Source: an uncultured OCS116 cluster bacterium (GTDB lineage: Bacteria > Pseudomonadota > Alphaproteobacteria > Rhizobiales > TMED25). Taken from it: a stretch of 64,000 nucleotides of DNA. The notes below the pieces were generated by a model. The model saw nothing but the letters and a program-made list of their open reading frames with translations. It did not search any database and was not told where the DNA came from. Within the stretch, counting starts at the first letter, position 1, and every line of letters starts with the position of its first letter. The position numbers and the translations under genes are program-made. The DNA lies in assembly GCA_902613795.1 (NCBI GenBank), contig CACMIP010000004.1, positions 62,001-126,000 on the forward strand. Reading direction: 5' to 3'. Shown here one piece after another: positions 17,865 to 64,000 of this stretch.

Positions 17865-18194
17865 ATGCACTGGTTATATTTATTTTTAGCGGTAATTGCA
17901 GAGACGCTTGGGACTACATTTTTAAAAATGTCCAATGGCTTTACGCAACTCTTTCCATCTATCTTAGCTATAGCTCTTTTTTGTTTAGCTCTTTTCTTAT
18001 CTGCAATTACTTTAAAATATCTAGCGGTTGGTATTGTTTATGCAATATGGTCTGGAGTGGGGATAGTATTAGTTACTCTTGTTGGTTACTTTTATTTTAA
18101 ACAAAATCTGGATATAGCTGCCTTAATAGGCATTGGACTTATAACCTTAGGTGTCTTGATAATATTCACTATGTCCAGGACTCAATCAGGGTGA
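17865..18194 (+). CDS. Small multidrug resistance (SMR) transporter
   Basis: A 109-residue protein with four membrane segments, the usual SMR size. The essential membrane Glu is in LAVIAETLGTTFLKMS (about residue 14), followed by the typical AYAIWSG-like VYAIWSGVGI and the QNLDIAALIGIGLI segment. SMR pumps work as antiparallel dimers and exchange protons for lipophilic cations or, in the Gdx subgroup, guanidinium. The sequence looks closer to EmrE/QacE than to Gdx, but this is not certain. It follows the MFS gene by 50 bases. Confidence 0.92.
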   Translation: MHWLYLFLAVIAETLGTTFLKMSNGFTQLFPSILAIALFCLALFLSAITLKYLAVGIVYAIWSGVGIVLVTLVGYFYFKQNLDIAALIGIGLITLGVLIIFTMSRTQSG

Positions 18195-62280: not shown

Positions 62281-62356
62281 GTCTAATATTTTTTCAGAAA
62301 GCTCAGTTTTCTAATTTTAAAAAACTTTCCCAATATTGGTATTTAATAATTATAAT

Positions 62357-63445
62357 TTAAATACTTTTATAATTTTGAAGTTCTTTGTATAAATTTAATA
62401 TTTTCTGAACCTCATCTTCATGGTTAAAATGCCTTTGGATGCGCAGGCGTGATTTTTCTGAATGTTCTTGAAGCTTTTCAGTGTTATTTATATACAAATT
62501 AATATGTTTCGACATATCTTTTTCACATTTCTCGACAATATAACCGCAATCATCATTTATAATCTCTCTGTAGTAACCAACATCTGTCGCTATAACCGGA
62601 ACAGAGCATGCCATCGCTTCTAGCGGTGTGAGACCGAATCCTTCATAAAGTGATGGGGCTATATACAAATCAAGTACTTTATAAAAATCTTCGATATCGC
62701 TAGTTTCGTCAATGAAAATTACGCGACTTTCTAGATTATTATCATCAACCGCTTTCTGTAATTTATTTAGAAATTTATTAAATTTAGGAGTAGTTCTTCC
62801 GACAACAAGAGCGCCCCAATTAGGTGCACTAGGCAATACTTTGCATATAGAGTTTATAAATAGATCAGTACCCTTTTCTGGCCTTATCCTTCCAAAGCAA
62901 CCAATATAATTTATATCCGGATCCAGACTCAATTTTTTCTTTAGTGCAATTTTATTATGAGACGGTTTAAAACGTACAGTGTCAACACCATGTGTAATTA
63001 CAGTAAGCATTTGCTTTTTATTATTTTTCTGGAATATGGGCTCGACGTAAGGCGTTGTTTTGTGACTAGTTACAATGACATGGTCCATATATCTGATTAT
63101 TATTTTTGAAAATTTTGAATATGGACGTTGCTTTGCTGCTGTAAATATCAATTTTATTCTAGTTTTAAAAAAATATTTGAGGATTATACCAAATATCATA
63201 TCACTATGACGTCTTGCATGAAAAATTCTATAATCAGCATCGTCGGGTTTTTTATGCAATTGAAATATTTTCAAAAAATGAATCTTTGGAATGCTTTCTG
63301 TTGGGCCAAGTCCAATCATTCTGATATCATAATTTTTTCTACGAAGGCTCTTTACAAGACTGTATGTAGAGGTTGTAACTCCTGTTATCCGTGATTTAAA
63401 TTTTGGTGAAATTGCCAGTAATTTTCTTATATCTGTACTCATCAT
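62357..63445 (-). CDS. Glycosyltransferase, GT4-type
   Basis: A 362-residue GT-B fold sugar transferase. N domain: FKSRITGVTTSTYSLVKSLR; C domain: CFGRIRPEKGTDLFI (about residue 190) and the sugar-nucleotide motif SLYEGFGLTPLEAMACSVPVI with the EX7E pattern (Glu near 275 and 283). Such enzymes add sugars in lipopolysaccharide or capsule synthesis and may use UDP- or GDP-sugars. It is alone on its strand, and the DegT aminotransferase, the only other sugar gene, is far away. Start is the ATG at 63445; one codon later is also possible. Confidence 0.9.
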   Translation of the reverse strand: MMSTDIRKLLAISPKFKSRITGVTTSTYSLVKSLRRKNYDIRMIGLGPTESIPKIHFLKIFQLHKKPDDADYRIFHARRHSDMIFGIILKYFFKTRIKLIFTAAKQRPYSKFSKIIIRYMDHVIVTSHKTTPYVEPIFQKNNKKQMLTVITHGVDTVRFKPSHNKIALKKKLSLDPDINYIGCFGRIRPEKGTDLFINSICKVLPSAPNWGALVVGRTTPKFNKFLNKLQKAVDDNNLESRVIFIDETSDIEDFYKVLDLYIAPSLYEGFGLTPLEAMACSVPVIATDVGYYREIINDDCGYIVEKCEKDMSKHINLYINNTEKLQEHSEKSRLRIQRHFNHEDEVQKILNLYKELQNYKSI

Positions 63446-63623
63446 TGCTATAATAATATTTATAACACACTAATAAATAAAAAAATCTAATCTATAGCCT
63501 AATTAGGTTTTATAATTGCTAATCAAAATTAACCTGTAAAATATAATCATATAAATTAATTAGGACGACTTCCAAAAAGATAGTGCAAGATCGATATGAA
63601 GTTATACGATACGGAGTTTATAA

Positions 63624-63673
63624 TGGTGAGGACGACAGGATTTGAACCTGTGACCCCCAGATTAGGAATCTGG
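63624..63673 (-). other. 3' half of tRNA-Arg(CCT); probable attachment-site remnant
   Basis: Read on the minus strand, this 50-base piece is the 3' part of a tRNA: anticodon stem CCAGA with loop TTCCTAA (anticodon CCT), T-arm ACAGG/CCTGT with TTCAAAT loop, acceptor 3' strand CGTCCTC, discriminator A and CCA. The D-arm and the 5' acceptor strand (expected GAGGACG) are missing: the sequence stops matching a tRNA just before the anticodon stem. This is the usual extent of a tyrosine-recombinase att site left when an island integrates into a tRNA gene. Confidence 0.8.
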
Positions 63674-63690
63674 AGCAGGTAGTATTTATT

Positions 63691-64000
63691 TTATTGAAAG
63701 CAAGCAATTATAGAGTCTCTTAAATAAGTAAAAGATCCATTAGAAATTGTAGCTTCAACTTCGAAAGTCTCCGGATTGACAATGACAAGATCTGCACGAT
63801 TGCCTATTTTAATCACACCTCTGTCAAAAAAGCCAAGGGCTTCCGCGGGGTTTAAGCTGATAAGATTCCATGCCTCACAAAATGGCATTATTTCTTTTTT
63901 AGTGATTACTTCAACTGCTTGAATTAGTGCGGGCAAATAGTAATCAGATACCAGTACATCGCATAGGTTTTCTCTTATCAATTCTTCGGCTGCGATGTTA
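63691..64000 (-). CDS. phnM: PhnM-like amidohydrolase (partial, runs off the right edge)
   Basis: The C-terminal 102 codons of a protein that continues beyond 64000 without a stop. Motifs DVLVSDYYLPALIQAVE (metal-binding Asp), NPAEALGFFDRGVIKIG and NRADLVIVNP are those of PhnM. PhnM removes diphosphate from alpha-D-ribose 1-methylphosphonate 5-triphosphate in the C-P lyase pathway, so phnGHIJKL genes should lie nearby. It ends 17 bases before the tRNA-Arg(CCT) half on the same strand. The internal TTG at 63981 is not the true start. Confidence 0.82.
   Translation of the reverse strand, partial: NIAAEELIRENLCDVLVSDYYLPALIQAVEVITKKEIMPFCEAWNLISLNPAEALGFFDRGVIKIGNRADLVIVNPETFEVEATISNGSFTYLRDSIIACFQ

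Follow-up and report, generated by a model that had tools for sequence, protein, structure and literature searches.

The analysed window comprises 64,000 nucleotides (G000:C4:62001-126000) of a 1.32 Mb genome that is assembled in 10 contigs and 97% complete. An orphan 3′ part of a tRNA-Arg(CCT) gene lies on the minus strand at positions 63624-63676. Read from 63676 to 63624 it is GC[T]CCAGATTCCTAATCTGGGGGTCACAGGTTCAAATCCTGTCGTCCTCACCA, corresponding to positions 25-77 of tRNA-Arg(CCT), which start immediately ahead of the anticodon stem and end with CCA, and it is identical to the full gene at 52 of 53 bases. The D-arm and the 5′ acceptor strand are absent, and no tRNA was called by ARAGORN at 63624-63676. 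All 34 tRNA and tmRNA genes were scanned against the whole genome, in which the half matched the full tRNA-Arg(CCT) with E = 2e-20, far above chance; the orphan half described in the initial annotation is therefore real. Rfam matches to HPnc0260 and tRNA at 63.5-63.7 kb were rejected as sub-threshold echoes of the half tRNA.

Exactly two copies of the 50-base 3′ part were located in the genome, both on the minus strand: the half at 63624 and a copy at C4:137649-137698, the latter contained in the single full tRNA-Arg(CCT) gene of the genome (C4:137649-137725, minus strand; window position 75649-75725, outside the window). As a direct repeat the two copies are 98% identical over 54 nt (53 nt in the tRNA scan), with a spacing of 12,025 bp. 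A full minus-strand gene had been predicted beyond the window, within about 100 kb to the right; it was found at 12 kb and carries the anticipated direct repeat of 63624-63673.

The 12-kb block bounded by the two tRNA-Arg(CCT) copies begins with phnM (minus strand), the 3′ part of which occupies 63691-64000 and stops 14 bp short of the distal repeat. The other end of the gene is at G000:C4:126881 (window position 64881), and the whole gene gives PRK15446/TIGR02318 and amidohydrolase matches. It is followed by phnG, phnH, phnI, phnJ, phnK, phnL and phnN on the plus strand, a DUF1045/TIGR03223 phosphonate-operon gene on the minus strand, and phnD, phnC, phnE, a methyltransferase gene and an MFS transporter gene on the plus strand, the last of these ending ∼360 bp from the full tRNA. 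The end sequences of the block are AATAAATACTACC at the phnM end and CACCATATTCCTCTGATACC at the MFS end. The island thus runs from phnM to the full tRNA-Arg(CCT), to the right of the half, as had been predicted. The phn cargo is complete and intact. The C-P lyase pathway releases methane from methylphosphonate.

Outside the repeat, the left flank carries a glycosyltransferase gene of the GT4 family (62357-63445, minus strand; Pfam Glycos_transf_1), which was not found in the loci of relatives and stands where several of them carry typA. typA adjoins tRNA-Arg(CCT) in the congeners G003, G008 and G010; it is missing from G000 (region at window positions 62281-63623), G002 and G009, where the matches are paralogues of ≤44% identity. 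A search past the glycosyltransferase gene for a second decayed half, which would have indicated stacking on this flank, gave none. In G006 (L019:1612-1688) tRNA-Arg(CCT) is apparently inverted relative to znuA and typA when compared with the close relative G001 (L015:9925-10001).

PhnJ was present in 3/12 genomes of the genus (G000, G001 and G009) and absent from the other 9. In G009 the block lies at the same tRNA in the same orientation and shares 98.0% identity with the G000 copy along 12.16 kb, and its distal 3′ part is decayed (9/50 positions changed); both block boundaries coincide with tRNA sequence in G000 and G009. The copy in G001 stands 2.4 kb away from tRNA-Arg, and a tRNA-Arg 3′ part is lacking at the phnM end. 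The site is empty in G010, where tRNA-Arg(CCT) is followed by 26 bp and typA. In G003 it holds a different insert (L017:2625-3343), in which ∼0.6 kb separates the tRNA from a second 3′ part with 1/50 mismatch. This stretch contains a single 130-aa frame, which belongs to no known family and is unrelated to the phn block. Similarity in this second part starts at the same base as in that of G000, and beyond it lie a near-identical 26-bp spacer and typA, as in G010. Relatives of the 130-aa frame also follow tRNA-Arg(CCT) in G008 and G002, in the latter ahead of a decayed 3′ part.

An empty site of the kind sought in related genomes is therefore provided by G010, and no relative was found to share the half-tRNA at the same place without an inserted block. 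The clean comparison of empty and filled sites holds for G003 and not for G000, where the direct flank of the half differs from that of G010 and typA is missing. Since different inserts with the same repeat boundary share one site, site-specific recombination is indicated; random insertion would not readily explain the shared boundary.

Identity at fourfold sites between G000 and G009 is 96.5% in the island and 78.9% in the flanking genes; between G000 and G001 the corresponding values are 90.5% and 36.1%. The three copies of the block differ by only 2-4% of their DNA. In the tree, G001 is placed deep in the genus and grouped with G006, which is without PhnJ. By fourfold-site identity against the flanks and by the tree, the history of the block differs from that of the host chromosome (n = 3 block-bearing genomes), and the block has moved horizontally and recently between congeners, including the distant G001. 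Across 398 genomes of the order, long phnIJ copies of >70% DNA identity were confined to the three congeners. PhnJ in named genomes reached ∼74% identity at most, the closest named relatives being alphaproteobacterial, and plasmid relatives of PhnJ reached 75% at most. A tRNA beside the PhnJ locus was seen in 0/15 marine alphaproteobacterial loci checked.

An integrase had been expected beside the full tRNA-Arg(CCT), and a PF00589 search found none there or anywhere in the block; all long frames are assigned and the gaps are too small to hold one. Just two PF00589 proteins are encoded in the genome, both outside the block, and their best matches are XerD and XerC. Relaxase and transfer genes are likewise absent, every block gene being assigned to another function. 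Identification of the block as an ICE, IME or prophage was rejected, as integrase, transfer and structural genes are all missing. No ICE or IME was found at this site among the congeners, whose non-Xer integrases were found only away from tRNA-Arg(CCT), and no excised circle was found. Viral contigs scanned for the tRNA 3′ part, the island MFS protein and PhnJ gave no match, so that no phage vehicle is known; a phage collection showed only generic tRNA similarity (∼78-86%). The proposal that the C-P lyase set is borne on a mobile or formerly mobile element consequently stands as regards its position inside the repeats and its recent horizontal movement, but not as regards autonomous mobility, as there is no integrase.

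The direct observations, namely the repeat, the cargo, the occupied and empty sites, a second insert with the same boundary, the excess of identity over the flanks and the absence of an integrase, are very probably to be explained by an integrase-less, att-flanked, CIME-like cargo island that was put into the 3′ end of tRNA-Arg(CCT) by site-specific recombination. On this view, the 12-kb C-P lyase island would have entered the only tRNA-Arg(CCT) gene of the genome at its 3′ end, by recombination in the stretch that runs from the anticodon stem to CCA. The tRNA would have been restored by the incoming copy of this stretch, and the resident 3′ part would have been displaced by 12 kb to 63624-63676, where it would form the distal att-like direct repeat of the island. 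The enzyme responsible was most likely a tyrosine recombinase with the tRNA-Arg(CCT) 3′ part as its target. It would have been provided in trans by another element or would since have been lost. As three copies 2-4% apart are all bare, the block was already integrase-less at its last move. The cargo was probably kept since phosphonates serve as a phosphorus source, and homologous recombination may have aided spread between close relatives. Points against this reading are that searches gave no recombinase, excised circle or vehicle, that the G001 block stands apart from the tRNA, that the half in G000 and the empty site in G010 have different flanks, and that the flanks of G000 and G009 are mosaic.

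It is possible, though rather unlikely, that a single older site-specific insertion made the repeat and that the block later spread mainly by homologous recombination via conserved flanks, a route proposed for the phosphate and phosphonate islands of HIMB59 (PMC10734472). Such spread would be consistent with the absence of an integrase and with the position of the block, which G000 and G009 have at the same tRNA and G001 next to it. The fourfold-site comparison of G000 with G009 bears on it in both directions. Identity drops sharply at the tRNA end, from 98.7% in the MFS gene to 57% in the gene immediately beyond the tRNA, and likewise at the distal repeat, where DUF4864 is at 66%, which argues against homologous spread; some genes further left of the island are again at ∼95%, which favors it. 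Because the flanks are mosaic in this way, some homologous exchange also took place between these genomes. The flanks of G001, at only 36% at fourfold sites, would be poor substrates for homologous recombination. In the decayed halves of G002 and G009 the last 30 bases share changes and the first part is near-intact in G009 only; the pattern would fit a crossover within the half, and could also have arisen by chance.

A decayed autonomous element (prophage, ICE or IME), inserted by its own integrase and deprived of its mobility genes after insertion while the selected phn cargo was kept, would correspond to the usual origin of a CIME, the structure of which is matched here, and a truncated tyrosine recombinase is present 3.1 kb from tRNA-His in G009. 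This origin is nevertheless rather unlikely, as all three copies are without mobility genes though only 2-4% apart, so that the block was integrase-less already when it moved between these lineages, and as the one-gene insert of G003 is just as bare. An assembly artefact in which two contigs were joined through the tRNA repeat is conceivable for a draft assembly of 10 contigs, since tRNA repeats can mislead assemblers, but is highly improbable, as the separate assembly of G009, 2% different, has the same block in the same orientation with the mutated half at the same end.

The preferred reading, of a CIME-like island placed site-specifically, was compared with known systems. Like a tRNA-integrated genomic island, the block has an intact tRNA gene at one end and a repeat of the 3′ part of that gene at the other. 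CIMEs (cis-mobilizable elements), which are by definition decayed ICEs or IMEs and are mobilized in cis by a functional element with which they have accreted, form accreted islands at the 3′ ends of genes, those for tRNA among them (PMC5704250, PMC7563491). The block resembles CIMEs in its att-like direct repeats, in carrying only cargo without recombination or transfer genes, and in the presence of more inserts and remnants at the site; it has the structure of a CIME, but an ICE/IME origin belongs to the definition, and neither kind of element was seen at the site. In Candidatus Methylopumilus (PMC10872708) additive flexible genomic islands have repeats of a tRNA-Lys end; there a streamlined genome likewise carries cargo units beside tRNA-end repeats, the units ranging in length from a few hundred bases to tens of kilobases. 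Here, in contrast, tRNA-Arg(CCT) provides the 53-nt repeat, single per side, and the cargo is the whole C-P lyase pathway. Tycheposons, described from Prochlorococcus, carry a tyrosine recombinase according to the summary given in PMC10872708. Within the terms of that summary they share with the block a tRNA gene anchor at the border and nutrient-related cargo, but the phn block, being without a tyrosine recombinase, falls outside the definition.

Homologous recombination was put forward for the HIMB59 phosphonate islands on the grounds that these showed neither a tRNA nor another trace of integration (PMC10734472). Transfer of phnCDE-ubiE between Pelagibacterales and HIMB59 has also been described, the operon being adjoined by tRNA genes and tyrosine recombinases in Pelagibacterales (PMC12416821). 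The present block is like these in its C-P lyase and/or phnCDE genes with a methyltransferase, its patchy presence and its identity above the genome background; the HIMB59 islands are without tRNA boundaries, whereas tRNA sequence is present here at both. A replacement island, arising by homologous exchange, has no boundary tRNA or att repeats, and repeats were found at both ends of the block. The kind of element is already known and the junction set is unusually complete here. The locus bears on how streamlined bacteria exchange nutrient genes and ties C-P lyase to a movable unit; with HIMB59-like cargo, both boundaries, an empty site, a second insert and a transfer signal, the site-specific route becomes directly testable.

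Within the phn island, between the MFS gene and the full tRNA-Arg, lies an orphan 3′ part of tRNA-His (C4:137385-137426, L003:19385-19426, minus strand; tRNA-His positions 30-71, 93%). The corresponding part in G009 (L105:1010-1057) reaches CCA (positions 30-77, 96%). At the same block end G001 has a different tRNA-His 3′ part (L015:7552-7597; positions 32-77, 87%), the flank of which, together with a SnoaL-like gene between the part and tRNA-Arg, is common to a tRNA-His insert of G004. The G004 insert, of 1.3 kb (L189:4980-6362), has tRNA-His on one side and a diverged repeat of the tRNA-His 3′ part on the other, and shares the SnoaL-like gene and end sequences with the G001 insert next to tRNA-Arg(CCT). 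On the simplest reading of these sequences, a composite history, the phn block would have stood beside tRNA-His, or been joined to a tRNA-His-targeted element, before reaching tRNA-Arg(CCT). With the tRNA-His remnant, the other inserts at the site and the absence of typA from the lineage, the history is more complex than one insertion.

Orphan parts of two further tRNA genes were located. In G000 a 45-nt 3′ part of tRNA-Asn(GTT) (C1:5274-5318, L140) adjoins a type I restriction-modification gene set running off contig C1, the full tRNA-Asn being near the end of contig C6 (C6:1123-1197, L144); the 3′ part and the restriction-modification genes are probably a second tRNA island in this genome. 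In G003 an orphan tRNA-Met 3′ part (L017:16636-16686) lies 1.4 kb from the full tRNA-Met (18110-18186). From the orphan parts of the Arg, His, Asn and Met genes, insertion at tRNA genes is common in the genus and integrases are rare beside the inserts. A speculative and decidedly doubtful extension is that these small-genome bacteria share a pool of integrase-less cassettes of 0.6 to 12 kb, from one gene to the whole C-P lyase pathway, which would be placed at tRNA genes (Arg-CCT, His, Asn, Met) by a common recombinase acting in trans and could switch their target tRNA, as is suggested by the tRNA-His remnant within the phn island. The truncated tyrosine recombinase of G009 (L188:7092-7586), at a contig end, is a candidate for such a helper or for the remnant of an integrase-bearing element.
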